Of a stretch of 47,504 nt of DNA, positions 4,350 through 45,131 are shown in pieces. The notes below the pieces were generated by a model. That model worked only from the letters and a program-made list of their open reading frames with translations. It was not told the origin of the DNA and searched no databases. The translations under genes were made by a program, and so were the position numbers. The DNA is from Rhodospirillales bacterium (GTDB lineage Bacteria > Pseudomonadota > Alphaproteobacteria > Acetobacterales > Acetobacteraceae), in the NCBI GenBank assembly GCA_028866335.1, contig JAGWIL010000002.1, positions 1 to 47,504 of the forward strand, in the 5' to 3' direction. Numbering within the stretch: the first letter of the stretch is position 1; each line of letters starts with the position of its first letter.

Positions 4350-5456
4350 GTGCAAAAGATCACCAGAACCCAGAAGGCATTAACTGAGGAACAATTGGCA
4401 TATGCGGAACAGTTCGCACAAGAGCGGATCGCCGCGATCCTGTCTACGGAGCCAGTGGATGAATCCGTAGCGGAAAATTACCTGCGCGATGCATATCGCG
4501 TCGCGAGACGGGAGCCGCCCGCCGTTATCCGCTGGTTTGATTCCCCGGTTGGATTTTGTCTGGCGCGTGTCCCCATCGTCAGGAACAGCATCAGGGCGAT
4601 CATCGGGGCGATCGTCGGGAACAGCGTCGGGAACAGCGTCGGAACGAGCATCGGAACGAGCATCGGAACGAGCATCAGGAACAGCGTCTGGAACAGCGTC
4701 GGGAACAGCGTCGGAACGAGCGTCGGAACGAGCATCGGAACGAGCATCAGGAACAGCGTCTGGAACAACATCGGAACGGGCATCGGGGCGAGCGTCTGGA
4801 ACAACATCGGAACGGGCATCAGGGCGAGCATCGGGGACAGTGTCACCGCATTATTCGATGCCGATGATTGCGCGCTTCTGTGGTTTTATCACATTGCCTA
4901 TCGTCCGAACGATTTCATTCATTTCGCTCAATTCAATGAAATGACGCATGGCTATTTTCTCGGAGCCAATGACGCATGGCTTGTGCGCCGCGCGGTGCGC
5001 CTGGAACGTGATGATCGTGGGCGACTGCATAGCGATTCCGGCATGGCGATCCAGTATGCCGATGGGTGGGGATTCTATGCTTGGCATGGCGTGCGGTGTT
5101 CAGAGCAGATCATCATGCATCCCGAGACACTCACCAAAGCGGACTGGATGCATGAGCGGAATCTGGAAGTCCGGCGTGTCATCCAGGAACGCCTATCTGC
5201 GGGGGAAGACGGCCCGTTGCCATTTCTCGCGTTGGTTGGCGTAAAAACGATCCACGCCGATGAATGTGGAGAACTCATGGAAGTGGATCTGGGGGACGAT
5301 CCCGAACGTATTGCCCGCTACGTCCACGTGCACGATAGCTCCACCTCACGGGAATATTATTTGCGTGTGCCTCCCACGATCCAACGCACCCGTGAAGGCG
5401 TCGCCTGGACCTTCAACATCCCAGAGGCCGAATATTCCCCACTTCAGGAGGCATAA
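4350..5456 (+). CDS. DUF6745 protein with 22 tetrapeptide repeats
   Basis: 368 residues from the GTG at 4350, which follows an AGGGAGG ribosome site. Residues 1-75 are the usual helical lead of DUF6745 proteins (EEQLAYAEQFAQERIAAILS, RWFDSPVGF). Residues 79-165 are 22 tandem four-residue units of the type x-S-V/I-G, encoded by 12-base DNA repeats. Residues 170-368 are the DUF6745 core, with SGMAIQYADGWGFYAWHGV, the WMHERNLEVRRVIQERL helix and a beta-rich C-terminal part. DUF6745 genes commonly place pentapeptide or other repeats in this central slot. The function is unknown. The gene lies in an operon with the RQGD/HEEH gene, which fits the known association. Repeat length is expected to vary between related phages. 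Confidence 0.8.
   Translation: MQKITRTQKALTEEQLAYAEQFAQERIAAILSTEPVDESVAENYLRDAYRVARREPPAVIRWFDSPVGFCLARVPIVRNSIRAIIGAIVGNSVGNSVGTSIGTSIGTSIRNSVWNSVGNSVGTSVGTSIGTSIRNSVWNNIGTGIGASVWNNIGTGIRASIGDSVTALFDADDCALLWFYHIAYRPNDFIHFAQFNEMTHGYFLGANDAWLVRRAVRLERDDRGRLHSDSGMAIQYADGWGFYAWHGVRCSEQIIMHPETLTKADWMHERNLEVRRVIQERLSAGEDGPLPFLALVGVKTIHADECGELMEVDLGDDPERIARYVHVHDSSTSREYYLRVPPTIQRTREGVAWTFNIPEAEYSPLQEA
4584..4844 (+). repeat. 12-bp tandem repeats coding for tetrapeptides
   Basis: About 22 degenerate copies of a 12-base unit (CGGAACGAGCAT, CGGGAACAGCGT and variants) inside the DUF6745 gene. The unit is a multiple of three and lacks stop codons in all three forward frames, so all three frames stay open through the block, and a long reverse frame is open as well. 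Only the frame continuous with the DUF6745 domains is taken as coding. The repeats are contiguous without unique spacers, so this is not a CRISPR array. Replication slippage is the likely origin. Confidence 0.9.
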
Positions 5457-9257: not shown

Positions 9258-9319
9258 CGCTATCGCCAGGATAGCGGAATTGTATCGGACGGAAAGACAC
9301 AAGGTATCCACAGGATACC
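9258..9319 (+). promoter_or_regulatory. Two-hairpin GGA-rich leader of csrA
   Basis: Two perfect seven-base stems lie in tandem: CGCTATC-GCCAG-GATAGCG (9258-9276) and GGTATCC-ACA-GGATACC (9303-9319). At least six GGA triplets fall within the leader, including one at the loop border of each hairpin. The second reads ACAGGAUA, close to the core of the CsrA-binding consensus (ACARGGAUG). CsrA proteins commonly repress their own mRNA by binding such sites, so autoregulation is likely. Structure is seen in the sequence; binding is inferred. Confidence 0.6.
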
Positions 9320-9342
9320 AACAGGGAAGGAATGGCAATCAG

Positions 9343-9540
9343 ATGGGCAATTTGGTCCTACGCCGGAAGCCAGGCGAGGCGATCGTGCTGGGGAATGTCA
9401 TCGAAATCACCATCATCGCCGTGGAAGGGAATGTGGTCAGGCTATCAGTACGCGCGCCTGAGTCAATCACCATAGTGAGAAAAGAGTTGCTCGCCCCCGA
9501 GCATCCTCGCCATATCCCGCCGCCGGAAGACGTGGCATAG
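9343..9540 (+). CDS. csrA: Phage-encoded CsrA/RsmA translational regulator
   Basis: 65 residues, the usual CsrA size. The sequence aligns end to end with CsrA: NLVLRRKPGEAIVLGN at the N-terminus, EITIIAVEGNVVRLSVRAPE across the central strands and ITIVRKELL at the end, keeping the RNA-binding arginine equivalent to R44 of E. coli CsrA and the LxLxR start. CsrA dimers bind GGA motifs in mRNA leaders and block or alter translation. An aagga ribosome site lies about 12 bases before the chosen ATG. The gene sits between the membrane-protein gene and the csf operon. Several downstream ribosome sites are GGA rich (for example GAGAAGGAGGATAGG before 9561), so both self-control and control of the csf genes are possible. 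Host translation reprogramming is the other option. Confidence 0.9.
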   Translation: MGNLVLRRKPGEAIVLGNVIEITIIAVEGNVVRLSVRAPESITIVRKELLAPEHPRHIPPPEDVA

Positions 9541-9560: not shown

Positions 9561-10034
9561 ATGGGATTCTTTGCCGCTGAACTTGCGCAGATCTTGCGTG
9601 CTCATGGGGTGACGCCGAATGCGTCCCCTTGGGCGACGCTGGCCCGCATGCATCTGCATCCCCAGTTGATTGATCGGCTCAAAAAAGCCGCCGATGATCC
9701 TGAGGTGATTGCCGCCATGCCGGAGCCGCATCTCGCGCAGCTCCGGGCCGAACTGGAATTGAGCCTGAACGAGCAGGCGCGATTGCAGGCCGGAATCGAA
9801 GCCGATGTCATGCTGCGGATGATGCGGTACCACTCGTACCCACTCAACGACGCGATGCATGTCGCGAATGGGGTGTTTGCGGCAATGCTGAAAGATCGGC
9901 TCGCAAACCAGTGCCAGACGATCACGTATGCCGAAACCAGTGACGCCGTGAATGACGCGATTATCGCGGGGCGCGGGCGCAGAGGGCGAGGCATCCGACG
10001 GCGCGTCGAGGCACCCCAGGAGGATCTCCCGTGA
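9561..10034 (+). CDS. Helical protein, first gene of the csf operon
   Basis: 157 residues behind a GGA-rich AGGAGG ribosome site. It is almost entirely helical by composition (LIDRLKKAADDPEVIAAM, LAQLRAELELSLNEQARLQA, NDAMHVANGVFAAMLKDRLA) and ends in a basic tail (GRGRRGRGIRRR). The next gene overlaps by four bases (GTGA). No family match is recognised. Because a helical small subunit (Cas11) of about this size is expected in type IV-B effector operons and none is otherwise seen, this gene is one candidate; the basic tail would suit RNA or DNA contact. This is a guess based on size, composition and place. Confidence 0.6.
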   Translation: MGFFAAELAQILRAHGVTPNASPWATLARMHLHPQLIDRLKKAADDPEVIAAMPEPHLAQLRAELELSLNEQARLQAGIEADVMLRMMRYHSYPLNDAMHVANGVFAAMLKDRLANQCQTITYAETSDAVNDAIIAGRGRRGRGIRRRVEAPQEDLP

Positions 10035-10330
10035 CGAATGCGAATCCGTTTGGCATCCCCAATCTCATTCGGGTGCCAGAATCGCAGGTGCGGTGCGAGG
10101 GATGTGCCCGGTTGGTTCCCATCAGTGAGAGCCTGTCCCTCCCAACGCCAGTTGGCACCTGGCAAGGGTGCATGCGTTGTGCGGGGGCACGGCTGGCGGC
10201 CTATGGTCGCCTGGAAACGCAGTATGCCCATGCCCTGACCTTGCTGGCACGGGCCTATCGGATGCTCACGAAACCAGAGGGGTATCGCGAGATCGGCGCG
10301 CTTGCGGACGAGATCCAGCACGCACTGTGA
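10031..10330 (+). CDS. Zinc-finger protein of the csf operon
   Basis: 99 residues from a GTG overlapping the previous stop (GTGA). Two CxxC pairs, CEGC (residues about 22-25) and CMRC (about 46-49), form a treble-clef or zinc-ribbon site; the C-terminal half is a pair of helices (QYAHALTLLARAYRMLTK, EIGALADEIQHAL). Canonical Csf1 proteins carry an N-terminal four-cysteine finger. The Csf1-like protein encoded two genes downstream lacks these cysteines, so this small protein could supply the missing finger in trans. That is inference; it might equally be an unrelated phage zinc protein. Confidence 0.6.
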   Translation: MTNANPFGIPNLIRVPESQVRCEGCARLVPISESLSLPTPVGTWQGCMRCAGARLAAYGRLETQYAHALTLLARAYRMLTKPEGYREIGALADEIQHAL

Positions 10331-10342
10331 GGGGAGGCAATA

Positions 10343-10687
10343 ATGATGGTGGTGGTCATCCACATCATGCCAAAGACGCTGATCTATTCCGAGCACGCCT
10401 TCTCGCGGCAACACGAGCGCACGATTGTCAATGCGCTCGTGTTGCCGCGAGCGGCCCAGCATACGCTGGATCTCGTGGCGGACATCACGAAACGGGCATT
10501 GTATCATCCTGGCAGTGACACCTATGCGTTCATGCATGGCGGCCAGGCCTGGCGCGCGATGCAGCCGCTGGTGCTCTTTGCCCCGAGCGAGATCCCGCAT
10601 TGGCGCGAATGCAAGGCGTGCCGGGATGGGGAATGGTGCGCGATCGGCCTCCGGATCATTGCCGCGCGCGTGCAAGGGGTGGCATGA
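10343..10687 (+). CDS. Hypothetical protein upstream of csf1
   Basis: 114 residues, GGGGAGG ribosome site. The N-terminal part reads YSEHAFSRQHERTIVNALVL, a helix with His and Arg residues somewhat like the TPHAVRRFQERV segment in the HTH gene at 13623. A C-x2-C-x4-C cluster (CKACRDGEWC) near residues 91-100 may bind metal. The stop overlaps the csf1 start (ATGA). The family is not recognised. Translational coupling to csf1 suggests a role with the effector complex or its expression. Confidence 0.5.
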   Translation: MMVVVIHIMPKTLIYSEHAFSRQHERTIVNALVLPRAAQHTLDLVADITKRALYHPGSDTYAFMHGGQAWRAMQPLVLFAPSEIPHWRECKACRDGEWCAIGLRIIAARVQGVA

Positions 10688-11520
10688 TGACGGCGAATTC
10701 TGTCTCGGATGCGCTCGCCACCGCATTCACATTCCCGCCGCTCCCCACACCGCCGGTGCTGCTCTCTGGGGAAACCTATGATGCCATGACTGGCACGCCC
10801 ATCACGGCGGGGTATCCCCTGGCGACGATCCTTTCAGTTACTACCGCCGATATTGCCAGCACCTTCCCACATCATTCCGGATACGTCTCCGATGCTACAG
10901 CGCGGGTGTTCGGCAATAGTAAGTTCACCGGCAATATTCTGGCGTATCAGCGCGACGGCGCATGGATCGGCATGCGCCCCCTGGTGAGCAGAGAAAATGA
11001 CCTATCAGTGGATCGCGGCCTATGGTGCGATATTCTGCCCAATCTGCCGATTGGCACACCCTGTGTTGCGATATTCAGCGATGATTCCAAGCGTCGTCTG
11101 TGGCCCAATGCCGTCGTCAGCACGATCGGGCCGCACTGGCGCGTCTACCTGCATGCGTCTGAGTTCGGTTCGGCGCTGATCACGATCGATCACGCCGCGT
11201 TGCTAGAGTGCCTGGTGCTCGTCACGCGCTGGTATGATACCGCGCTCACCAAAGATGCCATGCGGCGCGGCATCCTGCGCCTGGCATCATCGGCATGGGT
11301 CAATGGCGCGGGATGGGCGATGGCCCGTCGCGCCGAATCCGAGATCGCTCCCTGGCGCGACACGCCGGAACTCGCGATCGCCCTGTACGTGGCGCAACAC
11401 GCACCGAATTACGATGAGAAGGAAGTCCGCACATCATGGCAGAAACCACCGCAACCATCACCGGAGACATTGACATCAGCATCATCCCCGCGACCCGTGC
11501 AAGTTGGCCTCTTCGACTGA
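10684..11520 (+). CDS. csf1: Csf1-like protein of a type IV-B-like CRISPR-Cas complex
   Basis: 278 residues; start coupled to the previous stop. Residues 33-73 (YDAMTGTPITAGYP, then HHSGYVSDATARVF) follow the pattern of Csf1/Cas8-like proteins, in which a 'C-x-x-tG-x-pI-x-xGY' segment precedes a conserved y-v-s helix. Residues 130-143 (IFSDDSKRRLWPNA) match the family's conserved K-K/R-x-x-W/F block. The usual N-terminal cysteine pair is missing (LLSGETYDAMTG). A helical C-terminal extension (residues 175-262) makes the protein longer than typical Csf1 and could stand in for a Cas11 small subunit. Csf1 is the large-subunit equivalent of type IV complexes. The assignment rests on motif memory plus the adjacent csf2, csf3 and cysH. 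It overlaps csf2 by 85 bases. Confidence 0.6.
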   Translation: MMTANSVSDALATAFTFPPLPTPPVLLSGETYDAMTGTPITAGYPLATILSVTTADIASTFPHHSGYVSDATARVFGNSKFTGNILAYQRDGAWIGMRPLVSRENDLSVDRGLWCDILPNLPIGTPCVAIFSDDSKRRLWPNAVVSTIGPHWRVYLHASEFGSALITIDHAALLECLVLVTRWYDTALTKDAMRRGILRLASSAWVNGAGWAMARRAESEIAPWRDTPELAIALYVAQHAPNYDEKEVRTSWQKPPQPSPETLTSASSPRPVQVGLFD

Positions 11521-12878
11521 AGACCCTGACGCCGCTCGCGCATGGCGACCCCGACGCGCAAGACAAAAGCAACACCGCGCCATTCCGGCGCATCGCGCAG
11601 ATCGTCACGTTTGAGGAAGCGGGGACGCCCTGTACCGAGGCGCAACTACAACGCATCCTCCAGGCCGTTCCGGCCCCCACCGTCCTCATGGAGATCCTAG
11701 AGGGGATGGACGCGCCGGAATACCTCGCCTGCGCCGGATTGCGGCTGTTTCTGGACGCATACAACGGCACCGGCATGTTGGACGGCCCCAGCCGCTACGA
11801 TCGCCTAGCCTCGCGGGTGTGGATGAGCGCTAGCCGTGCGCGTTCCATGCGCGCGTTCTGGTCCGATCTCTGCAAGTCATTGCAGACCGGCGGCGACGGC
11901 GGGTTCACGCCGGAACTGCTCTCGTATCTTGCCATGCCGGGCACGCTCTCCATGCATGTTTTGGACATTATGGTGCAGCAGACCGAGACGTGTGTCATGG
12001 TCGCGCGGGCGTGGAATGACGCGGTGAAATTGAGCGATCGCGGCTACGCCGAACGCACCGGCAAAGCGTACCAGTCCACCGGCTATGAGATCCCGATGTA
12101 TTCCGCTGATCGGTTGCCCGCGCCGCAACTGACCGCCGTCCGGCGCATTCCGGCGATCACCGGCAACGCCATGCGGCATAGCGTGTTGCGTGAACCGCTC
12201 ATGGCGCACCTGAAGCATCATCTGGACATCCCCTTCTTTCCCGAACCCGTCGCCAAAATGCTGGGCAATGGCGGCAGCATCGCGGGGGCACAGCCGTATG
12301 ACGAGGCAGCACTGGGGGCGGAGATCGCGCAACGCTACCCCTCGCTGGCGCTCTTGGGCGGATCGACCGGCTGGATCATGCTGCCACGCTCGTATGCCCA
12401 GATCCCAACGTGGCTGGTCTGCCATGAGCATTCGGCGGTCCTGGCGCGATATGGCATCACGCCGGAACATGCGGCGGAAGATCTCATCACGACCGTCACC
12501 GAGGTCCGGCATGGGGCCGATCCGATGCCTGTTGCGGGGGAAGTGCTGGTAGAAGGCGCAGAGATCCTCTCGTTGCTCACGATCCGCCTGGGCGCGCCGG
12601 ATCTCGTGGTGGGAGCCGCCGCCGCCGCGTTGCTCTGGTACAAGCAGCATGCCGTGGCCGGTGGCACCGCCGCGCGCGGGCGCGGCTTGCTGGATCTGGC
12701 ATTGCCCGATGATCCGGAGATCGCCGAACTGGCGCAGGGCTATGAAGCGTATCTGCGCCGCAATCAGGATGTGTTGCGCGCCGGATTGCTGGATTTGACG
12801 CTGGGGACTGGGCGCAACGTCTGCGAAGCGCCAAAGGAGAAGGCCAAGAAGGGCAAAGGGAAAGGCGATGAGGACTGA
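11436..12878 (+). CDS. csf2: Csf2 (Cas7-like backbone) of a type IV-B-like complex
   Basis: 480 residues, longer than usual Csf2 proteins (about 330-350). The start at 11436 lies inside the end of csf1 (85-base overlap). Residues 27-52 (RLKTLTPLAHGD ... SNTAPFRR) resemble the first RRM strand and following loop of Csf2/Cas7 (consensus L-x-x-L-T-P-L-h-x-G/D). Residues 238-250 (IPAITGNAMRHSV) match the Cas7 'P-x-I-x-G-N-x-l-R' motif. A large insertion of mainly helical sequence lies between these blocks. The end is lysine rich (KAKKGKGK). In type IV systems Csf2 coats the guide RNA as a helical backbone. The gene overlaps csf3 by 11 bases. Confidence 0.65.
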   Translation: MAETTATITGDIDISIIPATRASWPLRLKTLTPLAHGDPDAQDKSNTAPFRRIAQIVTFEEAGTPCTEAQLQRILQAVPAPTVLMEILEGMDAPEYLACAGLRLFLDAYNGTGMLDGPSRYDRLASRVWMSASRARSMRAFWSDLCKSLQTGGDGGFTPELLSYLAMPGTLSMHVLDIMVQQTETCVMVARAWNDAVKLSDRGYAERTGKAYQSTGYEIPMYSADRLPAPQLTAVRRIPAITGNAMRHSVLREPLMAHLKHHLDIPFFPEPVAKMLGNGGSIAGAQPYDEAALGAEIAQRYPSLALLGGSTGWIMLPRSYAQIPTWLVCHEHSAVLARYGITPEHAAEDLITTVTEVRHGADPMPVAGEVLVEGAEILSLLTIRLGAPDLVVGAAAAALLWYKQHAVAGGTAARGRGLLDLALPDDPEIAELAQGYEAYLRRNQDVLRAGLLDLTLGTGRNVCEAPKEKAKKGKGKGDED

Positions 12879-13626
12879 TCCACGCATTGCCGCATGCGCC
12901 GCAACGTGGGGGCCGCTCGCGTTGCGGCCCTTGCGCGTCACGATGCATCTCGACACCGGCGTGGCGATGTACGAGCCGATCCATCTGGACGGCCTGCTCA
13001 GTTACGCCGTGGTGACGCATGCCATTGGTGGCGGCGCGGACTTAGTGGATGCGCCCGATCCCTACGATCTCCCATTGCCCCTCGCGTGCCTCTGGCGCGA
13101 TCCGGTGTCAGGCTTGCCGCTGTGGGCGGCGACAGAAATGGAGCCGTTGGGCATGGCGCATCGGACGCGCGTGACCTGGACGCGCAAGCAGGTCGAGGCA
13201 CATCATGTCGTCACGGCGTCCGGCAAGCCGTATGCCCCCCGGTCAGGCAACGGGCCAGGGAAAGACATGCAGATCCCGCTCCCGATCACGATGTGTGCGA
13301 CGTGGCAGGCCGACGTGATCGGCGATGCGCGGATCATCCACGATCTCCTCAGTAGTGTTGGGCAGGTGGGCAAAAAGGGATCACAGGGCTGGGGGCATGT
13401 CGTGTCATGGCAGATCCAATCTCTGATGGCGTGGAATCTGTGTGATGCACAGGGCGACACGCGGCGCATCGTGCCGGGAGGGGCGCTCGCATCGCACGAT
13501 GGTGGCGCGCAATGGATGGGGTGGACGCCGCCCTATTGGCGAAATCGCATGCTATGCCTGCCAACCGGCACACATCTGGGAGAGTGGCGATGGGTGGACA
13601 GAATTACAACAACCGGGGCGGCATGA
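12868..13626 (+). CDS. csf3: Csf3 (Cas5-like) of a type IV-B-like complex
   Basis: 252 residues. Two hallmark blocks are visible. One is the EPIHLDGLLSYAV segment near residues 36-48, the conserved N-terminal motif of Csf3 proteins, where a strand is followed by HLDALLA-type sequence. The other is the glycine-rich loop GQVGKKGSQGWGHV at residues 165-178, typical of RAMP (Cas5/Cas6) folds and especially Csf3. LPLPLA near residue 68 and the SGNGPGKDMQIPLP segment also fit the family order. Csf3 caps the 5' end of the guide in type IV complexes. The gene overlaps csf2 upstream and the HTH gene downstream (ATGA), so the complex genes are translationally coupled. Confidence 0.72.
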   Translation: MRTDPRIAACAATWGPLALRPLRVTMHLDTGVAMYEPIHLDGLLSYAVVTHAIGGGADLVDAPDPYDLPLPLACLWRDPVSGLPLWAATEMEPLGMAHRTRVTWTRKQVEAHHVVTASGKPYAPRSGNGPGKDMQIPLPITMCATWQADVIGDARIIHDLLSSVGQVGKKGSQGWGHVVSWQIQSLMAWNLCDAQGDTRRIVPGGALASHDGGAQWMGWTPPYWRNRMLCLPTGTHLGEWRWVDRITTTGAA

Positions 13627-14282
13627 CGTTGCCAGAACGCCAAGCGCGAGCGCAGCGCTTGGCGGGATACGTCCGGCGCTATGCCGGGACACACGCTCCC
13701 ACATGGATTGCGCGCCTGATGCATGACCCAGAATGCACCGCCGCGACGGTGGTAAAAGCGATGTATCGGCATAAGTGTGCCCCCACACGCACCGGCGAAT
13801 GGATGACGGCGCGCCAAGCGGCGACACATCTTGGCTGCACCCCACAATGGGTTTCGGCACAATGCCGCGCGGGAATGCTTGAGGCACATCGCAATCCTGG
13901 CGGGCGCTGGTGGCTGATCAGCGCGAAGGCGATTGCGGAATACGCGCGTGCCCGCGCGGCCCCTCGTGCCGATCTTGCGCGGGTCCAGGGGCGCTATTTC
14001 GTGACGCCGCATGCCGTCCGGCGCTTCCAAGAGCGCGTGTTGCGCCCCAAGCATCTCCGGTTCCCCTTCCATCAGGCGCGGGCAATCCTCATCGCCGCGC
14101 TGGATCACGACTGGTCTGCACATCCGGTCCAGCACACCGATCCGCTCGCGGCGCAAGAGGATAGCGTGATGGTGCGCGTCAATTGGCCGGTGGGGGGCCA
14201 GCGCCTCTGTTTTCGAGCGTTTATTTCCACACGCGGGATCAGCCCGGCGCGGCCATTACCGAAAGTGGTGACGGTCCTATGA
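13623..14282 (+). CDS. MerR/excisionase-type HTH protein within the csf operon
   Basis: 219 residues; the ATG at 13623 overlaps the csf3 stop (an in-frame ATG at 13590 is an alternative start). Residues 60-110 are a clear AlpA/excisionase-like helix-turn-helix: TARQAATHLGCTPQWVSAQC, then a wing (GMLEAHRNPGGRWWLISAKA). Residues 120-219 form a second domain (VTPHAVRRFQERVL ... PVGGQRLCFRAFIS) of unknown type, with a helix resembling a segment of the 10343 gene product. A DNA-binding protein between csf3 and cysH might autoregulate the operon or recruit the effector to DNA. Neither role is documented. Confidence 0.65.
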   Translation: MTLPERQARAQRLAGYVRRYAGTHAPTWIARLMHDPECTAATVVKAMYRHKCAPTRTGEWMTARQAATHLGCTPQWVSAQCRAGMLEAHRNPGGRWWLISAKAIAEYARARAAPRADLARVQGRYFVTPHAVRRFQERVLRPKHLRFPFHQARAILIAALDHDWSAHPVQHTDPLAAQEDSVMVRVNWPVGGQRLCFRAFISTRGISPARPLPKVVTVL

Positions 14283-14764
14283 GTTTGCTGAAATGCCGGG
14301 AATTGGCCCTGATCATTGGCCCATGTGGCGCGGGCAAGAGCACCTACGCGCGCGCGCATTATCCTGAGCACGCCCGCCCCGAGCGTGAAGGGATGATCCG
14401 CGCCATGACGCCAGATGGGGCGCTACACTACTATCCGGCGCTCCGGGCGATTGCCTCGGCATTGCAGGATCTTGCCGTGGCATCCCTGTTTGCGCGGGGG
14501 TATGCGGTATGCGTAACTGATGGAGGGGCGACACGCGCCGAACGGGCGCGATGGGTCGGCATGGCCGCCAATGTGCCCTGCCACGTCATTCGTCTCGTGG
14601 TGTCCCCCGCGACGGCCATTGCTCGTGCCGCCTCCGATCCCACACGGCCCCAAACGAGCAAGGGGAAATGGCCGAAGATTGTCCAAAACTGGTATCGGCG
14701 CTGGGAATCGCCCGATCCCGCTGCTGAGGGATTGGCATCCTATCTGGAGGTGGCCTGGGAATGA
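14279..14764 (+). CDS. P-loop NTPase, polynucleotide-kinase-like
   Basis: 161 residues, coupled to both neighbours by ATGA overlaps. A Walker A motif, GPCGAGKST, occupies residues 14-22 in the context LALIIGPCGAGKSTYAR, typical of small kinases of the AAA_33 / T4 polynucleotide kinase type. Downstream VCVTDGGATRAERARW resembles the 'D-x-x-x-x-x-x-x-R' lid region and VIRLVVSP the strand before the nucleotide-binding tail. It is slightly shorter than the stand-alone kinases of this group and shows no phosphatase domain. A nucleic-acid or small-molecule kinase inside a type IV-B-like operon is unusual; it could modify guide RNA ends or a nucleotide substrate shared with the CysH-like protein. 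Confidence 0.7.
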   Translation: MSLLKCRELALIIGPCGAGKSTYARAHYPEHARPEREGMIRAMTPDGALHYYPALRAIASALQDLAVASLFARGYAVCVTDGGATRAERARWVGMAANVPCHVIRLVVSPATAIARAASDPTRPQTSKGKWPKIVQNWYRRWESPDPAAEGLASYLEVAWE

Positions 14765-15573
14765 CCCCAGACGAACGATTGCGCGGCATCCTGCATGCGC
14801 GCCTGCCTGGCTTCCAACGCAAGATCGCCGTGACGCAAACGATCATCCGGAACGCTTTGCGGATCGACGATCTGTGCTGGTACGCGGCGTTTAGTGGCGG
14901 CATTGATAGCCTGGTGATGCTCGATCTGCTCTGGCGACTGGGCATCCGGTGCGATGTGGTGTGGGGGGATGACGGCATTGATTTTCCAGAGACCCTGCAA
15001 TTTCTGACGGCCACACAGGCGCGATATGGGGTCCGACTAATCCGCGTGCGTAGCCAAGATCCCTGGCGATCCTGGTGCGCGGAAATGGAGCGGCCCGATC
15101 TAGCGGAAGATCCAGCGGCACTCGCCGCATGGCGCAATCCGCATGACTGGGATCACCAGTGGCGCTCGTTGACCAAAGACGCGCCCGGAAATGGCTATGG
15201 CGGCGTGTTCCTGGGGATGCTGGGGACGCGCTGGAAGCAGGGCGGCGAAAGCGCGGCGCGGAACCATCAGTTACGCGGCGGCTGGCATCCGACGTATCAA
15301 GTCGCCAGCGAAGGCGGCATGTGGCATTGCTCGCCCCTCGCGGCATGGACCAAACACGACGTGTGGGGATACGTCGCCGCCAATGACCTGCCGTACAATC
15401 CGGTCTATGACGTTCAGGCGCAGATGGGCATCCCGATCGAGCGCCGCCGCGTCAGTGCCCTCACCTGTTTTCGCGCCGTCCAGTTCGGCTCCCACGCCGC
15501 GATCCGCGCCGGTTGGCCGGATCTCTGGAATGATGTGGCGGAGACGTTTCCCACGATCCGGCGCTATTCCTGA
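14761..15573 (+). CDS. cysH: CysH-like PAPS reductase / ATP-pyrophosphatase family protein
   Basis: 270 residues; start overlaps the kinase stop (ATGA). The ATP-pyrophosphatase P-loop SGGIDS is at residues 45-50 in YAAFSGGIDSLVMLDLL, followed by VVWGDDGIDFPETLQFL, which matches the 'D-t-G-x-x-f-P-E' strand of PAPS reductases. A later GMLGTRWKQGGESAARN segment fits the 'G-x-R-x-x-E-S-x-x-R' substrate loop. The C-terminal E-C-G-x-H reductive cysteine motif of true PAPS reductases is absent. CysH-like genes are a known companion of type IV-B CRISPR loci, where their role is unresolved. It is the last gene of the operon; about 90 bases later a new promoter starts the next unit. Confidence 0.85.
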   Translation: MTPDERLRGILHARLPGFQRKIAVTQTIIRNALRIDDLCWYAAFSGGIDSLVMLDLLWRLGIRCDVVWGDDGIDFPETLQFLTATQARYGVRLIRVRSQDPWRSWCAEMERPDLAEDPAALAAWRNPHDWDHQWRSLTKDAPGNGYGGVFLGMLGTRWKQGGESAARNHQLRGGWHPTYQVASEGGMWHCSPLAAWTKHDVWGYVAANDLPYNPVYDVQAQMGIPIERRRVSALTCFRAVQFGSHAAIRAGWPDLWNDVAETFPTIRRYS

Positions 15574-34911: not shown

Positions 34912-36135
34912 CTAGGAATGACAAGTAATTGTGTGGATCGCCTCTGACAGCACGGTTTGTGCCCCAACCCGCTTGTACGCCAGGACGCCGATCTGCGCCG
35001 ACGTGGCATACAGCTCTTCCAAACGCTGCACCGCAATTTGCGTGCGATCCACGATGCGATAGCCGCGCTGAAAGTCGCCAAACGCGATCGGCACCGCTGA
35101 TGCGGCCTGGTTCGGCATGTCTGGTGCAACGACATATTCCAGGTTCAACAGGCGCGGCGGATCGGCCAATCCCATGCCCGGCTCCCACAGATAGCGATTC
35201 TGGCTGTCCTTCAGTTTGCGAATTACGCCAAGCGTGTTGAGGTTAAACACCCATTTCGCATTCGCGATATAATACGCGAACGCGCTCCAGTTGTGCAGCG
35301 CGCCGATCAGATCGTCCGCGCCCACAACGCCGGATGAGGCGGTGGTGTACGTCGTCATGTTCGGGTCATTCAGGATGCCCAACGGCTGGCCGACGCCTGT
35401 GCCTGAAACGAATGCCGTGCCCTCCAATTTCGCGAATTGTTGCGCGAATTCAAAGGACATCTCCTTCTCCATATCGAAGAAGGAATCTTCCAGCAATTGG
35501 CGCGAGAACAGCATCAATGCATAGCATTCATGCGTGGGGATGTCCTTCATGCCGAACTGGGGATTACTCGACACGGTGCGTGTGCCGGTTTCTGAGATCC
35601 AGGCGGCGGCGGTAGGGGCCGTCAACACCGGAATCTTGAGATTGTTGCTACTGGTTTGCATCACGCGACTGATCCCACGCAAGGGCGAGATCAGCACAAC
35701 GTTGCGAATGATCTCATCCTGGATGATATCAGGCAGCACAAAGAATCCACCCAGTGTATCATCTGTGAGGTTCAGCGCCTTGAGATCCAACCCGTGCGCA
35801 TTCGGGGTCCCGTCTTTCAATTGATCCGGGACCAGGTGTGCGCGATCCTCTGTGCTCAGATTGCGCATCGTGAAATTGCTGGCGATCAGCGACCGGAGCG
35901 CTTTCGTGCGCGCTTTCTGGCGCTGCTTCGTTTCCAGGTCCGGGCTGTCAGCGGCGCGCGGGCCGTCATGCAACGCCGGGCGCGTCATTTTCGCTTCCAG
36001 TTGATCCAATCGCGTATTGAGCGCCTGGAAGTTTGGCGCGCGTTCCGCCAGTTGCGCCTCGCCCAGATCAACAATCTCACGCAACCGGTGCGTGAGATGC
36101 TGCATTTCTTCGTAGTCTTGTGGGGTGCCTGCCAT
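34912..36135 (-). CDS. Major capsid protein, HK97 fold
   Basis: 407 residues. Residues 1-75 are a helical delta domain acting as scaffold (YEEMQHLTHRLREIVDLGEA, ALNTRLDQLEAKM). The mature part shows HK97 signatures: LPDIIQDEIIRNVVLISPLR near the N-arm, the VMQTSSNNLKIPVLTAPTAA / AAWISETGTRTVSSNPQFGM E-loop region, LFSRQLLEDSFFDMEKEMSF spine helix, and FGDFQRGYRIVDRTQIAVQR near the end. It directly follows the protease gene in transcription order. The prohead protease next to it should remove the delta domain near residue 110-125. Confidence 0.92.
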   Translation of the reverse strand: MAGTPQDYEEMQHLTHRLREIVDLGEAQLAERAPNFQALNTRLDQLEAKMTRPALHDGPRAADSPDLETKQRQKARTKALRSLIASNFTMRNLSTEDRAHLVPDQLKDGTPNAHGLDLKALNLTDDTLGGFFVLPDIIQDEIIRNVVLISPLRGISRVMQTSSNNLKIPVLTAPTAAAWISETGTRTVSSNPQFGMKDIPTHECYALMLFSRQLLEDSFFDMEKEMSFEFAQQFAKLEGTAFVSGTGVGQPLGILNDPNMTTYTTASSGVVGADDLIGALHNWSAFAYYIANAKWVFNLNTLGVIRKLKDSQNRYLWEPGMGLADPPRLLNLEYVVAPDMPNQAASAVPIAFGDFQRGYRIVDRTQIAVQRLEELYATSAQIGVLAYKRVGAQTVLSEAIHTITCHS

Positions 36136-36138
36136 GTG

Positions 36139-38103
36139 CTAGCCCTTTCCGCCGGATCGCATCCGGCGCAACGCCATAAGATCCGCGTCCAGCGCGGTGA
36201 TCAACCCAGGCGTGGTGCCAGCCGTGCGGCGGTCCGGCGCGGGGGTGCGGCCCTTGTTGGGATTGGTGCCGCCATTGGGGGTATCGTCGTCGCCCAGCAC
36301 CGTGTCCTCGTCCTGCCGGACATGATCGGGATCGGTTTTCGTCATGAGATCGGCAATCGCGCCATGGTGCATCTTCATCGCCTTCATCGCCTCACTCATG
36401 CCGTCCAGCGCCTCGGTGATGACGGTGCGGTTCGCGCTCCCAATGGCGCGCCCCGCCTTGCGCAATGGCGCGGGGGCAGCAGGCATGGCGAGTGGACGAC
36501 GACGCGCCTTCCAATCATCATCATCATCATCATCGTCGGCATTGCAGCCGTCGGGGTCAAGAAACTGATCGCCGTCATCGTCCAGACACGGCGCAAAATC
36601 CGCGGCCAGTGAGCGCGCCACCAGGCTCATGACGGCTTTGCCAAATGCGTCAAGGTTGGCCTGTGCGGCCTCTTGGGCATTAAACGGCTCTGCATTGTCA
36701 GAAAGCCATCCATTTGCTTGCCATTGCGCTTGCATCATCAGTTCTGCCATCGCGTGCGTGAAGGCAATGAACGTATCGCCCCAATCATCTTGCAACTCAT
36801 CAGCGGCATTTAAGGATTGGAAGAGCGTATCAAAATCACGCGCCTTGCGGGGCATACGCCCATCCGGAGTCTTGCGATCAGGGCTTGGCATTGCGGCTTT
36901 GGGCGTAGGCGCGTTCTCATGCGCGTGGCCATGCGCAGCATCATCCTCGTGCGTGTGCTCGTGCTCATGCATCGCGTCATTCCCCTGACTTCCCATCGCC
37001 GTGTGACTATGCGTGTGCGTGCCCGTATATTTCGCGTGCGTGCCGTCCTCAGAGACGGCCAGCTCGCCGCCACTGCCCTTGATCAGGCGAGTGTTCATGT
37101 TCGCTCCTTTGCCGTCCTCTGATTCGCCTAGCGCTTTCTGGCGGGCGGCGATACGCTTATCAATAATGGCTTGTTCATCTTTGGTGTATTGGCTGCGCGT
37201 CGCCTCCTGCCCAAAACGCGACGCGGCATTATCGGCATGACTCTTATCCGGCATGGGGAGCTTGTAATTGACGGGATCGCCCCATTCCTCATCCGGCACG
37301 TCTTTCCACGCGCTCGGCTTCGTGACGTTCCCGCCGTCCTTGATCCCGATGCCATACTTCTTTGCCCGTGCCTCTTGGGCCGCCTTGTCATCATCTGTGG
37401 CCGCCTTGGATTGGAGTCGTGTCGCCAAATCTGTCATTGTCTCTATGACCCCCTGGATGGTGTACGGCTGGTCGCTCGCATCGGCGGGGGCCAGCGCAGT
37501 ATGGAGCGCCTTCAATTCGCGGTCAAGCGCCTCACAGAGCGCGTCCGAATGAAGCGATCCCGTGTGCAAGAGGCTGTCAATGCGACTGGCGCGATCCGCC
37601 AGCGCCGTAAGCTCGGAGGGATGTGCGAGCGATTTAATGGAAATGACTGGCGTCTGGGGTTGCGCGCCCCAGGTCACACAGGAAAATTCAAATAATTTCA
37701 CCTGTTTCAGCAATCGGGCATGCTGCGCGCGGTCCCACGTTGCTTCCACCACTTCATAGCCAATCGAGTGTTCAGTCAAAACCTTTTCGGCATAGAGTGT
37801 GAGCACATCGCGAGCCAGCGGCGTATCCGCGAGCGGCACTTCAAAATATAGGCCATAGGGATCTTCTCGCAATACGCTTGGCACCCCTAGCAGTCGCGTG
37901 GAATCATGCATATAGAGGAACTTGATGCGCGGCTGCTTGGATTGCGGCCCTTGCTCGGCCAGGGTCTTTTGGAACGCCCCGGGTAGCACGATATCCTGAT
38001 CGGAGTCAATGATATTGAACGCCGATGCATAGCCGGTGATGATGCCTTGCAGCGTGTCCACATCGCGAATGCCGGAGGAAAGGGCTTTATGTAACATGAT
38101 CAT
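36139..38103 (-). CDS. HK97-type prohead protease fused to DUF6582-like and low-complexity regions
   Basis: 654 residues, far longer than stand-alone S78 proteases (about 200). Residues 12-185 hold the peptidase: GIITGYASAFNIIDSDQDIV, likely catalytic H66 in LYMHDSTRLLG and S113 in EHSIGYEV. Residues 249-326 match the DUF6582 pattern (WKDVPDEEWGDPVNYKLPMP, QYTKDEQAIIDKRIAARQKA). Residues 356-396 are His-rich (HTHSHT, HEHEHTHE, HGHAHE); residues 523-530 are eight Asp coded by a CAT/ATC triplet run near 36520. The fusion could make a protease-scaffold polyprotein; the His-rich and Asp-rich parts suggest metal binding. Confidence 0.85.
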   Translation of the reverse strand: MIMLHKALSSGIRDVDTLQGIITGYASAFNIIDSDQDIVLPGAFQKTLAEQGPQSKQPRIKFLYMHDSTRLLGVPSVLREDPYGLYFEVPLADTPLARDVLTLYAEKVLTEHSIGYEVVEATWDRAQHARLLKQVKLFEFSCVTWGAQPQTPVISIKSLAHPSELTALADRASRIDSLLHTGSLHSDALCEALDRELKALHTALAPADASDQPYTIQGVIETMTDLATRLQSKAATDDDKAAQEARAKKYGIGIKDGGNVTKPSAWKDVPDEEWGDPVNYKLPMPDKSHADNAASRFGQEATRSQYTKDEQAIIDKRIAARQKALGESEDGKGANMNTRLIKGSGGELAVSEDGTHAKYTGTHTHSHTAMGSQGNDAMHEHEHTHEDDAAHGHAHENAPTPKAAMPSPDRKTPDGRMPRKARDFDTLFQSLNAADELQDDWGDTFIAFTHAMAELMMQAQWQANGWLSDNAEPFNAQEAAQANLDAFGKAVMSLVARSLAADFAPCLDDDGDQFLDPDGCNADDDDDDDDWKARRRPLAMPAAPAPLRKAGRAIGSANRTVITEALDGMSEAMKAMKMHHGAIADLMTKTDPDHVRQDEDTVLGDDDTPNGGTNPNKGRTPAPDRRTAGTTPGLITALDADLMALRRMRSGGKG

Positions 38104-41501: not shown

Positions 41502-41915
41502 CTACACCTCGACAATCAGCGCCGCCGCCGCCACCTGATATTGGTTGCCAACACTCACGGCCTGGCTTGTCACTGCCTGATAGAAGAGCAAATTTCCCGC
41601 GCTTGAGGCGTCCCAGATGCCGATGCCGGTGACTGTGTAGCTACTGGTCGTCACCGCCGGAAACGTGATCGCGTTGCTATTGCTGATCTGGTCATGGATC
41701 GTATCGGCGTTCTGGCTGATCGCGCTCCATGCGCTTGACGCGACTGTCTGGCGCGCATAGGATGAGCCACTCACCTCCGTGCCCGATCCGGTATTCGCCG
41801 TTGGGGTCGTGCTGAAGAGGCCAATATAGAGATTCGCGGGGGCGGCGGGAAACGTGACCCCTTTTATCCAGGAGAGCAAGTCATCGGCTAAGGCCTTCGC
41901 TGTCGCATTCGCCAT
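41502..41915 (-). CDS. Phage structural protein, HEG-insertion target
   Basis: 137 residues. ALADDLLSWIKGVTFPAAPA, NLYIGLFSTTPTANTGSGTE, SGSSYARQTVASSAWSAISQ and TGIGIWDASSAGNLLFYQAV match a known group of phage virion proteins ('l.vgLft..P...g.gtEvsG..YaR..v' and 'fg.fd..sgG.ll....l'). Its first 12 residues are MANATAKALADD. A truncated, slightly different copy of the same start (MANATAKSLADD) lies 890 bases upstream, on the other side of the homing endonuclease gene. The start codon lies inside the end of the endonuclease gene, and has its own AGGA site. Confidence 0.75.
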   Translation of the reverse strand: MANATAKALADDLLSWIKGVTFPAAPANLYIGLFSTTPTANTGSGTEVSGSSYARQTVASSAWSAISQNADTIHDQISNSNAITFPAVTTSSYTVTGIGIWDASSAGNLLFYQAVTSQAVSVGNQYQVAAAALIVEV

Positions 41916-42621
41916 CTACATTTCCTGCTTTCTTGCGTGTCCAGTTACGCTTGCCTGACTCTGACATTTTTACGCGCGTCTCAGGCGTTGGGGTATATGT
42001 TTGGTGCTTTCCACGTGCTTTTGTCGTTGCTATCCTCGTGGCAATTTGCTCTGGGGTTTGCTTATGCCCAAGCTTTGCAGCACTCATTTTCGCACGCGAT
42101 TCTTCACTAACGCTATGGCCCCGAAGCCCTTGCGTGATCTTTGCTCGCACTTCTGGCGATCTAGGCTTGCCTCTGCGGGCTTTACCCATCTTTTCGCGCA
42201 CGTCAGCAGGCAACGATCGCCCCTTCAGGGTTGCTGATATTTTCGCTCGCACCTCATCAGAGAATGTGCGGCCCTTCTGAATGCATCGCATGCGCTCAAT
42301 TGTTTCTGGCGCATGCCGAAAGCCTAAAGGACTGCCAGCGCGCAAGAGGATGTTATAACTAGGCTTGAGAGTATCAATCCAATGTTGCTCACGAGCAAGG
42401 ATGAGATTCACATCTTCAATCTCTTCAATGAGCGTAAAGGTAAATGCCTCAGAGCCATATTTGTTCCATGCGTGTTGCAGGTGGCGATTCGGATGTTTGC
42501 CGGGGCGAAGATCGCGATGATGTTCATACAGCCGATCTTGAAGGTGTGCTGAACTGCCAACATACTGCTTGCCATTCACAGTGTTGGTAATGGCATAGAT
42601 GCCCATAGGGGGTACAGTCAT
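41881..42621 (-). CDS. GIY-YIG homing endonuclease with NUMOD3 repeats
   Basis: 246 residues from the ATG at 42621 behind AAGGAGT; longer in-frame starts lack a ribosome site. The nuclease domain has GIYAIT (residues 7-12), QYVGSS (19-24), R-L-Y-E-H-H with the catalytic-type Arg, and a C-terminal W-I-D-T-L-K-P-S-Y-N. After it come NUMOD3-type DNA-binding repeats (RTFSDEVRAKISATLKGRSL, KPRSPEVRAKITQGLRGHSV, KQTPEQIATRIATTKARGK). A promoter (TTGTCG-17-TATACT) lies upstream. It overlaps the downstream structural gene by 35 bases. A mobile selfish gene that cuts intron- or gene-less alleles. Confidence 0.93.
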   Translation of the reverse strand: MTVPPMGIYAITNTVNGKQYVGSSAHLQDRLYEHHRDLRPGKHPNRHLQHAWNKYGSEAFTFTLIEEIEDVNLILAREQHWIDTLKPSYNILLRAGSPLGFRHAPETIERMRCIQKGRTFSDEVRAKISATLKGRSLPADVREKMGKARRGKPRSPEVRAKITQGLRGHSVSEESRAKMSAAKLGHKQTPEQIATRIATTKARGKHQTYTPTPETRVKMSESGKRNWTRKKAGNVDGECDSEGLSR

Positions 42622-42724
42622 CGGTCTTACTCCTTGCGGTAAGTCCTTGGTGATGTGGACCGCCAGGATGCCAAGGAGCATCTTTTTAGACTGGTTCATG
42701 AGGCCAATCCTAGACGGCATCTCT

Positions 42725-42753
42725 AGTATATCATTCTCTCTGGCAGGCGACAA
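42725..42753 (-). promoter_or_regulatory. Promoter of the homing endonuclease
   Basis: On the minus strand TTGTCG (42748-42753), 17 bases, TATACT (42725-42730). The predicted start is near 42718, giving a leader of about 100 bases. It overlaps the end of the truncated copy of the structural gene start, so the promoter probably came in with the endonuclease gene. Confidence 0.7.
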
Positions 42754-42805
42754 AGCGGAAATAATACATATCGTCAGCAAGTGACTTTGCGGTGGCATTC
42801 GCCAT
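42731..42805 (-). pseudogene. Truncated 5' copy of the 41502 structural gene
   Basis: A reading frame of 24 codons: MANATAKSLADD followed by MYYFRFVACQRE and a stop. The first 12 residues are the same as the start of the gene at 41915 except S for A, but many codons differ at the third base. It keeps a GGAG ribosome site directly behind the head-morphogenesis stop. This appears to be the original start of the structural gene, cut off by insertion of the endonuclease gene. Confidence 0.75.
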
Positions 42806-42806
42806 A

Positions 42807-43613
42807 TCAGTCTCCTTCGCTCTCCATAATCGCGGCCTGCGCCTCGGTGGGCGTGCCGGTAATGACCCATTCCAGCCAGCACCGGCAGCCGCTTGTCTCA
42901 GATAATGATCCCTGTGGATCGCCAGGGTAGTCCAGCGATTCGCCGCCGACGGTGAACGAGTCCTGCGCGTCAATGGTCATGCCGTCCACGTCGTCGTGCG
43001 TCGCTCGCACGCGATCATCGCCCATCGTGTTCCACGTCTTCGCGCATGAGTAGCCCTGATCCAGCAGGTTCAGGATGCCATCAAATTCGCCCATGCCCCA
43101 CCCCTGGCGTGTCAGATCGCCCGCGATTTGTTCCGCGAAATCCCCCGCGCCGGTCTGGCCGATCCACTGATCAAACAGCGCGGAGACGGCGTCCACGAGG
43201 CCCGCGAGATCCATCCCGTGTGCGATGCCCGCCGTGAGTACCTCTGTCAGCATATCGCCGGTGTGATCTTGCACCCATCCGGCAAGATCGTCCTGATTCG
43301 CGGCAGCCCACTCCGCTGCCGAGGTGCCCGGCATGTCCATGCCCGTCACACCAGCGGCCTCTAGCGATTGCCGCACTGCCGCGCTCGCAGCGGTGGCCGC
43401 GCCGGTGACGAGGGCGACCAGCAGCACCGCCCAGGCATGGCGCTGGCGATCATGGGCCTGTTGCGCGGCCTGTTGCGCTTGATCGGGATCGCCCGCACTA
43501 GTAATGGCCGCACAGACGGCTTGGCGCGTCGCGGCGAATTGCGCCACGACGGCGGCACGGTTCTGCGCCGCTAGCCGATCGCGGGCCGCGTGTGCCGGTG
43601 GGAGGGGACGCAC
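42807..43613 (-). CDS. SPP1 gp7 / Mu F-like head morphogenesis protein
   Basis: 268 residues from a GTG that lies inside the end of the portal gene (43-base overlap). The N-terminal half is Ala-rich helix, with a possible membrane-like or coiled segment (WAVLLVALVTGAATAASAAV). The C-terminal part is the family's conserved core: KTWNTMGDDRVRATHDDVDG, then FTVGGESLDYPGDPQGSLSE and CRCWLEW. Proteins of this family act in head assembly, attached to the portal, and some enter the host with DNA. Follows the portal gene as usual. Confidence 0.88.
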   Translation of the reverse strand: MRPLPPAHAARDRLAAQNRAAVVAQFAATRQAVCAAITSAGDPDQAQQAAQQAHDRQRHAWAVLLVALVTGAATAASAAVRQSLEAAGVTGMDMPGTSAAEWAAANQDDLAGWVQDHTGDMLTEVLTAGIAHGMDLAGLVDAVSALFDQWIGQTGAGDFAEQIAGDLTRQGWGMGEFDGILNLLDQGYSCAKTWNTMGDDRVRATHDDVDGMTIDAQDSFTVGGESLDYPGDPQGSLSETSGCRCWLEWVITGTPTEAQAAIMESEGD

Positions 43614-45121: not shown

Positions 45122-45131
45122 ACTGCTACCC

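Follow-up and report, generated by a model that had tools for sequence, protein, structure and literature searches.

Plasmid-borne type IV-B CRISPR systems, such as those of Rhodococcus, Mycolicibacterium and Xylanimonas, carry csf1, csf2 and csf3, often accompanied by cysH. One IV-B complex has been solved (PDB 7jhy, from Mycobacterium sp. JS623), and it showed no preference for crRNAs (PMC7937560); in the IV-B loci of annotated records that we used for comparison, a separate cas11 gene is present in 12 of 12 cases (11 plasmids and 1 phage). Virus-borne IV-B has already been published: the available part of PMC10848311 describes an archaeal-virus (Fuxiviridae) locus with CysH and a mini-array, which we compare here by description. 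A IV-B-like operon with CysH is likewise found in Skermania phage SPI1 (locus L005), with cas11 and csf2 as separate genes. Type IV-A systems have a DinG helicase, Cas6 and an array, are without Cas11 (PMC7937560) and, going by the accessible part of PMC11656645, silence without a nuclease. The type III-E Cas7-11 (gRAMP) and III-I Cas7-11i proteins unite Cas7 and Cas11 in one polypeptide, with several Cas7 domains and one Cas11 per chain (PMC12669027, the portion available).

The locus described here has the csf2, csf3 and cysH genes of the plasmid systems and a putative csf1, and differs from them in that its carrier is a phage and its Cas11 lies inside Csf2. The gene block at 10684-15573 is almost certainly a type IV-B-like CRISPR effector set; because it has no separate cas11 gene, we class it as a IV-B-like variant and not as a plain IV-B member. 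Within the window (the whole stretch of 47,504 nucleotides that was analysed), the operon order is csf1-csf2-csf3-(two genes)-cysH, and every gene of the operon is an open frame. The features are as follows.

10684..11520, + strand: putative csf1, large-subunit (Cas8-like) gene, 278 aa; PADLOC typeIV_Cas8 E 0.017
11436..12878, + strand: csf2 with inserted Cas11, one gene, 480 aa; PADLOC Cas7 E 2e-20, Cas11 E 2e-5
11436..11609, + strand: first portion of the Cas7 core, residues 1-58, with strands at 20-30 and 50-58; from the Csf2 profile and alignment with unfused phage Csf2s
11637..12059, + strand: inserted Cas11 domain, residues 68-208; from hhalign and predicted secondary structure
12132..12878, + strand: remainder of the Cas7 core, residues 233-480
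12868..13626, + strand: csf3, Cas5-like; PADLOC typeIV_Cas5 E 1e-32, PDB 7xfz Csf3 E 9e-5
13623..14282, + strand: HTH_17 gene (E 1e-8), with YFVTPHAVRRFQERV in its C-terminal domain; 51% identity to an operon gene of locus L001
14273..14764, + strand: P-loop kinase-like gene (AAA_33, E 3e-11) between csf3 and cysH, a candidate member of the system
14761..15573, + strand: cysH-like ATP-pyrophosphatase gene with an SGGIDS loop; PAPS_reduct E 9e-20

A preliminary description of this DNA had started the system at 9561 and had cysH directly following csf3. Neither point held: three ORFs tested in 9561-10687 are without Cas similarity, and the HTH and P-loop kinase-like genes intervene before cysH. 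The C-terminal domain of the HTH gene (with YFVTPHAVRRFQERV) also occurs near csf genes in loci L003, L038, L039 and L041. The motifs named in that description are all present in their frames, and its phage context is confirmed by the terminase, portal, HK97-family capsid, head protease and tape measure encoded in the same window, which support a tailed phage as carrier. In the window (63 ORFs; the phage genome is perhaps incomplete) neither a CRISPR array nor genes for Cas6 or adaptation were found, which agrees with type IV-B, and the ORFs gave no match to DinG. This contrasts with type IV-A and, for the array, with the Fuxiviridae locus. Rfam gave zero matches in the window.

For Csf2, Csf3 and CysH the evidence supports the type IV-B-like identity that was first proposed; for Csf1 the support is weaker. 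Besides its PADLOC match, Csf3 resembles the IV-A Csf3 of 7xfz and scores 63 bits against TIGR03116, which is below the 140-bit cut-off of that model. The window CysH matches a profile of 6 CysH proteins from annotated IV-B records and is without the catalytic cysteine motif ECG(I/L)H; in the CysH alignment (32 rows, leaving out those of at least 300 aa and those on the minus strand) the SxGxDS loop is kept in 32 of 32, as SGGIDS in the window and SFGADS or SWGKDS elsewhere, and no cysteine is common to all. The csf1 gene, which shares its last 85 nt with csf2, is weakly similar when taken alone (profile-profile comparison by hhalign with nine Csf1s of annotated records gives prob 70%, E 4e-5); its position agrees with the proposed identity, the csf1 at the equivalent position of L001 is 48% identical, and viral homologues link the two profiles, matching that of the annotated records as well as the window-type one. 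This weak similarity, helped by synteny and the bridging homologues, suggests a Csf1. The match of csf2 to PADLOC typeIV_Cas7 likewise agrees with the preliminary description, which had overlooked the Cas11 insert in that protein.

Sequence comparison indicates that the Cas11 small subunit is encoded in the locus as a domain inside Csf2, and this insertion is the reason that Csf2 has 480 aa instead of about 290. Three of three members of a 3-row Csf2 alignment match both PADLOC Cas7 and Cas11, and the alignment matches 12 Cas11s of annotated records (hhalign, prob 87, E 4e-6). A profile built from the 15 fused proteins hits two subunits of 7jhy to which the window's are homologous, Csf2 at E 1e-12 and Cas11 at E 1e-4, and aligns over residues 82-202 with 6 stand-alone phage Cas11s (hhalign, prob 99.5, E 6e-23). 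Ahead of the insert, Csf2 profile positions 5-34 align at residues 21-52, a match that is weak alone (-2.0 bits). The AlphaFold model of Csf2 (pLDDT 83.6, from a 23-sequence alignment; an earlier 3-sequence input gave pLDDT 35 and was discarded) has a Cas7 fold that is interrupted, between two of its strands, by an insert of nine helices and no strand of at least 3 residues. Foldseek with this model returned 35 matches at E<=1e-3, every one a chain from a CRISPR complex of type IV or type III, although such whole-chain searches bear on the Cas7 core and not on the insert. Of the Cas8-, Cas7- and Cas5-like folds that had been expected for the three proteins, the Cas7 fold was thus recovered, Csf2 alone having been predicted. 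The insertion point is clean relative to sister phage loci with separate csf2 and cas11, and by eye a plausible ribosome site precedes csf2 in the window and in L001. Compared with the III-E and III-I chains, this protein has one Cas7 core interrupted by one Cas11, so that each polymerising copy would carry its own Cas11. The fusion appears to be without description in the literature searched, Pinilla-Redondo 2020 and Moya-Beltran 2021 lying outside that scope.

A search with a 5-row Csf3 alignment found 24 IMG/VR loci with Csf3: csf2 is fused in 13 (one of these cut by a contig end) and unfused in 8, with a recognised separate cas11 in 7 of the latter, and the remaining 3 are cut; cysH is present in 21 of the 24. 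The fused genes number 15 in 15 records, including the near-identical pairs L016/L017 and L021/L022, and their products are colinear with the window's at 25-46% identity, with core residues conserved; in the sister locus L026, csf2 is broken by an in-frame stop. The trees fit a single origin of the Csf2-Cas11 fusion, inside a phage clade; SPI1 falls outside this clade on both trees. On the Csf3 tree the clade holds 19 rows (15 fused, counting P0007, presumed fused because its contig agrees with that of P0002 in length and sources, and 4 without an assigned architecture; support 96/95), and the fused label needs 5 changes because those 4 rows lie inside the clade. The Csf2 tree excludes L026 (broken), L015 and L036 (cut) and L039 (a copy of L038).

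Among 5.8 billion proteins searched (about 8,000 candidates scored) there were three full-length relatives, the window itself included. In 400 genomes of the phylum to which the L001 genome belongs, with up to 4 candidates per genome scored, 13 match the fused profile, the L001 genome at full length and the remaining 12 over short stretches (19.6-27.2 bits); we therefore rejected a wide occurrence of the fusion in bacteria, one full-length case having been found. Viral contigs searched with the window Csf2, the window Csf3, the 3-row Csf2 and a 2-row Csf1 alignment yielded nothing. Plasmids gave no match to the window Csf2, and 29 records, all below 60% identity, to the window Csf3. The remark that descriptions of such systems in phages are rare is broadly correct: in 50,697 phage records, tblastn with the window Csf2, the window Csf3 and three other phage Csf2s found no match and a plasmid IV-B Csf2 matched one record, though the IMG/VR search with Csf3 gave 24 loci and an archaeal-virus locus is published (PMC10848311, in the part available).

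The explanation that we favour, by a little over even chances for the whole, is a fused Csf2-Cas11 effector that coats RNA without cutting it and captures guide RNAs, with CysH alongside. Assembly of Csf2-Cas11 on RNA is likely, and each backbone subunit would then likely bring its own small subunit: a polymer of these subunits would line a short RNA, the 1:1 tether placing Cas11 in an inner strip, and Csf3 and Csf1 would cap the filament. The RNA would stay uncut, as no nuclease was recognised in the gene set, and would come from the host or co-infecting elements, as no array or Cas6 was found in the window. Loss of the putative catalytic Asp42 of 7jhy (taking the published number as the position in the deposited chain, where residue 42 is Asp) was dropped as an argument here: this position, in a loop that aligns loosely, has Asp in 0 of 15 fused Csf2s and in 1 of 12 annotated-record Csf2s, and since 11 of those 12 are also without it, its loss says little on cutting. 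By capturing small or guide RNAs during infection, the complex may blunt RNA-guided defence or a competitor. Such capture in mobile-element conflict is our best guess at the biological role, and a tentative one; it is common to other hypotheses too. Action against plasmids or other phages, or use as a guide-RNA regulator, had been put forward as possible roles in the preliminary description. CysH may act beside the complex as an ATP-pyrophosphatase adenylating a bound substrate, an enzyme that guide capture leaves unexplained (review PMC8175902, in part).

RNA-guided silencing is a possible alternative of modest probability: the fused complex would load host-made crRNAs or an undetected phage guide and, like IV-A, would stop the transcription of host genes or of competing phages and plasmids without cutting them. 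The nuclease-free silencing by type IV-A and the mini-array of the archaeal-virus locus (PMC11656645 and PMC10848311, as far as available) are in keeping with it, and a perfect 20-bp hairpin (z -7.2) upstream of csf1, at 10402-10451, could belong to an RNA. In L032 a perfect 12-bp hairpin of different sequence lies some 0.36 kb ahead of csf1, and no other locus showed a perfect one of at least 12 bp there (perfect arms only); because L032 is thus the only other case, we dropped the hairpin as a common guide RNA. Exact 18-mer repeats at array-like spacing occur in the window and, among L001-L041, in L005, L023 (twice), L026 and L032, but inspection pointed in every case to tandem duplication or a coding repeat, and they were rejected as CRISPR arrays. 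The unmatched DinG and Cas6 in the 63 window ORFs and the indifference of the solved IV-B complex to crRNAs (PMC7937560) also argue against silencing.

Alternatively, CysH may be central, the RNP presenting bound RNA or DNA to it for adenylation or another modification, with guide capture secondary. This has already been proposed for IV-B (PMC8175902, in the part available), and the frequency of cysH in the Csf3 loci and the invariant SxGxDS loop without a universal cysteine fit it. We nevertheless consider it unlikely, as the loop varies in its other residues and phages have PAPS-reductase homologue families (phrog_424 and phrog_2302). PAPS-reductase homologues of phages also occur outside csf operons. 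An assembly artefact as the source of the fusion, or a decayed operon without function, is very improbable: the scarcity of full-length relatives and the broken csf2 of L026 are outweighed by the 15 diverged, colinear fused genes, the plausible ribosome site and the open frames.

The role of type IV-B is a standing question, for which this lineage, kept by phages, offers a simpler system: since each Cas7 contains its Cas11, it needs CysH and only three Cas-like proteins, and is suited to purification and to study during infection. The sister phage clade retains csf2 and cas11 as separate genes. The fusion is another route, beside III-E and III-I, by which Cas7 and Cas11 have become one polypeptide. 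More speculatively, and on balance doubtfully, the lineage may represent a phage-restricted type IV subtype in which a self-polymerising Cas7-Cas11, uniting both strands of the CRISPR filament in one protein, would serve as an array- and nuclease-free trap, stripping the host or rivals of guide and small RNAs.

The operon of the window is a single run of six overlapping genes on the + strand, from csf1 to cysH, in which csf2 is a fusion: its Cas7 core is interrupted by an inserted domain that is, judged from the sequence, Cas11.

10684-11520, +, csf1 (PADLOC, hhalign and position)
11436-12878, +, csf2, fused (PADLOC and our own profiles)
12868-13626, +, csf3
13623-14282, +, HTH gene, between csf3 and the kinase-like gene
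14273-14764, +, P-loop kinase-like gene, directly before cysH
14761-15573, +, cysH

Among the identities proposed in the preliminary description, profiles give clear matches for Csf3 and CysH, and Csf1 is weak on its PADLOC match alone (E 0.017); the latter shares 48% identity with the Csf1 of L001 (a related locus from a Ktedonobacterales MAG, on a contig of 5.9 kb), sits at the expected operon position, and matches nine Csf1s from annotated records in profile-profile comparison (E 4e-5, probability 70%). The csf1 and fused csf2 genes overlap by 85 nt both in the window (11436-11520) and in L001 (897-981), and in each, inspection by eye shows a plausible ribosome site before csf2. Just upstream of the run the phage encodes a CsrA-like RNA-binding regulator (9280-9540, E 7e-17), and just upstream of csf1, inside a 114-aa ORF, lies a 20-bp perfect inverted repeat with a 10-nt loop (10402-10451, z -7.2 as RNA). 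The only other locus with a perfect hairpin (arms of at least 12 bp) upstream of csf1 is the viral locus L032 (12 bp, 5394-5425). In another viral locus, L023, the region downstream of the csf/cysH genes holds, at a distance of about 1.7 kb (from about 10497), a 73-nt hairpin-rich unit twice in tandem; upstream of these genes, from about 2317, lies a tandem duplication of 96 nt.

Csf2 of the window has 480 aa, compared with 286-339 aa in the 12 annotated-record IV-B loci from which we built our own Csf2 and Cas11 profiles. The PADLOC matches lie at residues 121-211 (Cas11) and 235-337 (Cas7), and all three fused proteins scanned match both families. Our Csf2 profile aligns at positions 5-34 (residues 21-52; -2.0 bits, weak alone, the placement being plain in alignment with unfused phage Csf2s), 44-123 (residues 235-313) and 179-282 (residues 348-450), and positions 55-130 of our Cas11 profile fall on residues 122-199. 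A profile of the fused Csf2s (15 rows, 13 after filtering) matched six stand-alone phage Cas11s over residues 82-202 (probability 99.5, E 6e-23); these Cas11s matched the annotated-record Cas11s at E 2e-9, and the control pair, Csf1 against Cas11, gave E 0.11 and a probability of 0.6%. Against all PDB sequences, the best matches of the fused profile were Csf2 (E 1.1e-12) and Cas11 (E 1.4e-4) of 7jhy, the solved IV-B complex, each through a different part of the profile, followed by a Cas7c chain (E 8e-4); the stand-alone Cas11 profile also reached 7jhy Cas11 (E 0.005).

Among 5.8 billion proteins, a search that scored about 8,000 candidates returned two further fused Csf2s, one on a 10.4-kb contig and the other in L001, where csf1, fused csf2, csf3, one other gene, cysH and an HTH gene form one run. 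In 24 loci from viral contigs, scanned with five Csf3s, a complete fused csf2 is present in 12 (L014, L016-L023, L025, L028, L032) and one cut by the contig end in L015; cas11 and csf2 are separate in seven (L026, L027, L029, L031, L033-L035), L030 has an unfused csf2 at the contig end with no cas11 recognised, and three loci are cut (L024, L036, L037). The six stand-alone phage Cas11s, as queries, led to 11 loci (five new, six previously found), all with separate genes. The two genes are also apart in 12/12 annotated-record loci fetched, of which 11 are on plasmids and one is in Skermania phage SPI1, whereas in the window Cas11 lies inside Csf2. Gene order differs within the fused clade, cysH lying between csf2 and csf3 in L019-L023. 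In the sister locus L026, csf2 (about 6784 onward) is broken by an in-frame stop ahead of the last Cas7-core part.

On a Csf2 tree of the Cas7 core, with Cas11 columns removed, the 15 fused proteins fall on one side of a branch (support 93/89; 94% of 200 bootstrap trees), and their sister is a group of seven phage loci with unfused csf2 (99/96; joint support 100/99). The Csf3 tree agrees, with a 19-row clade (15 fused and four rows of unassigned architecture; 96/95) adjoining a nine-row clade (seven separate and two unassigned; 99/95), both together at 99/96. Because both trees are rooted at the midpoint, we infer the direction of change, fusion rather than fission, from the separation of cas11 and csf2 in the other IV-B loci seen. 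The literature searched, in which coverage of key papers is incomplete, yielded no description of a Csf2-Cas11 fusion. Fusions named in the text consulted are Cas7-11 of III-E/III-I (PMC12669027) and csf1-csf3 fusions in type IV (PMC8175902); a type I-E Cas7-Cas11 fusion has been made as a laboratory construct (PMC12883894).

The operon is phage-borne, as originally proposed; the window represents a portion of a tailed-phage genome, with these phage genes:

26744-29278, -, tape measure
34912-36135, -, major head protein
36139-38103, -, head maturation protease
43571-45301, -, portal
45132-46565, -, terminase large subunit

The window also holds a GIY-YIG homing endonuclease amid the head genes (41881-42882) and an array of 12-nt repeats (4567-4854). 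Among the 20 of 24 viral records checked for virion genes, a portal was found in five, Terminase_6N over cut-off in 11 and at least one of these in 14, including eight of the 12 complete-fusion loci; the capsid profile phrog_10 matched 5/22 records, every one already with a portal. Several records without a match are short fragments, but this does not hold for others, such as the records of L023 (56 kb) and L032 (54 kb). Published work already describes IV-B carried by viruses, as well as type IV from phages and prophages (PMC10848311, PMC11656645).

One domain, marked by the motif YFVTPHAV(K/R/E)RF(R/Q)ER(V/I), recurs beside IV-B-like loci and is possibly an unnoticed IV-B accessory; three stand-alone copies scanned had no Pfam match.

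Window 13623-14282, +, fused to the HTH, as in L001
L003 6669-6926, stand-alone, between csf3 and cysH
L041 7911-8279, between csf1 and cas11
L038/L039 7998-8330, beside the IV-B-like locus
L040 3198-3392, no csf genes in the stretch examined

Several IV-B loci (L003, L009, L012) have a second, longer PAPS-reductase-like gene nearby, annotated DUF3440. Between csf1 and cas11, two plasmids share a small conserved ORF that contains CxxC (L004 4507-4737, L006 2349-2582); its L004 copy had no Pfam match.

In the solved IV-B complex, six Csf2 and five Cas11 subunits are assembled on heterogeneous RNA that is about 55-60 nt long (PMC7937560); fusion would fix the Csf2:Cas11 ratio at 1:1 and would tether the inner (Cas11) strip. 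RNA-guided silencing by the complex is a live alternative, and so is CysH-driven modification. Where 7jhy has its putative catalytic Asp42, Asp is present in 0/15 fused proteins, but since only 1/12 annotated-record Csf2s has Asp there, the residue is uninformative as to cutting, either way. CysH keeps S-x-G-x-D-S in 32/32 aligned rows, with no cysteine common to all, the same pattern that PMC8175902 describes for IV-B CysH. From this pattern, the assembly of the IV-B complex on RNA, and a window that yielded neither an array nor a gene for Cas6, DinG or adaptation, we propose, with modest confidence, that the operon makes an RNA-coating complex with which the phage would capture small RNAs or guide RNAs.
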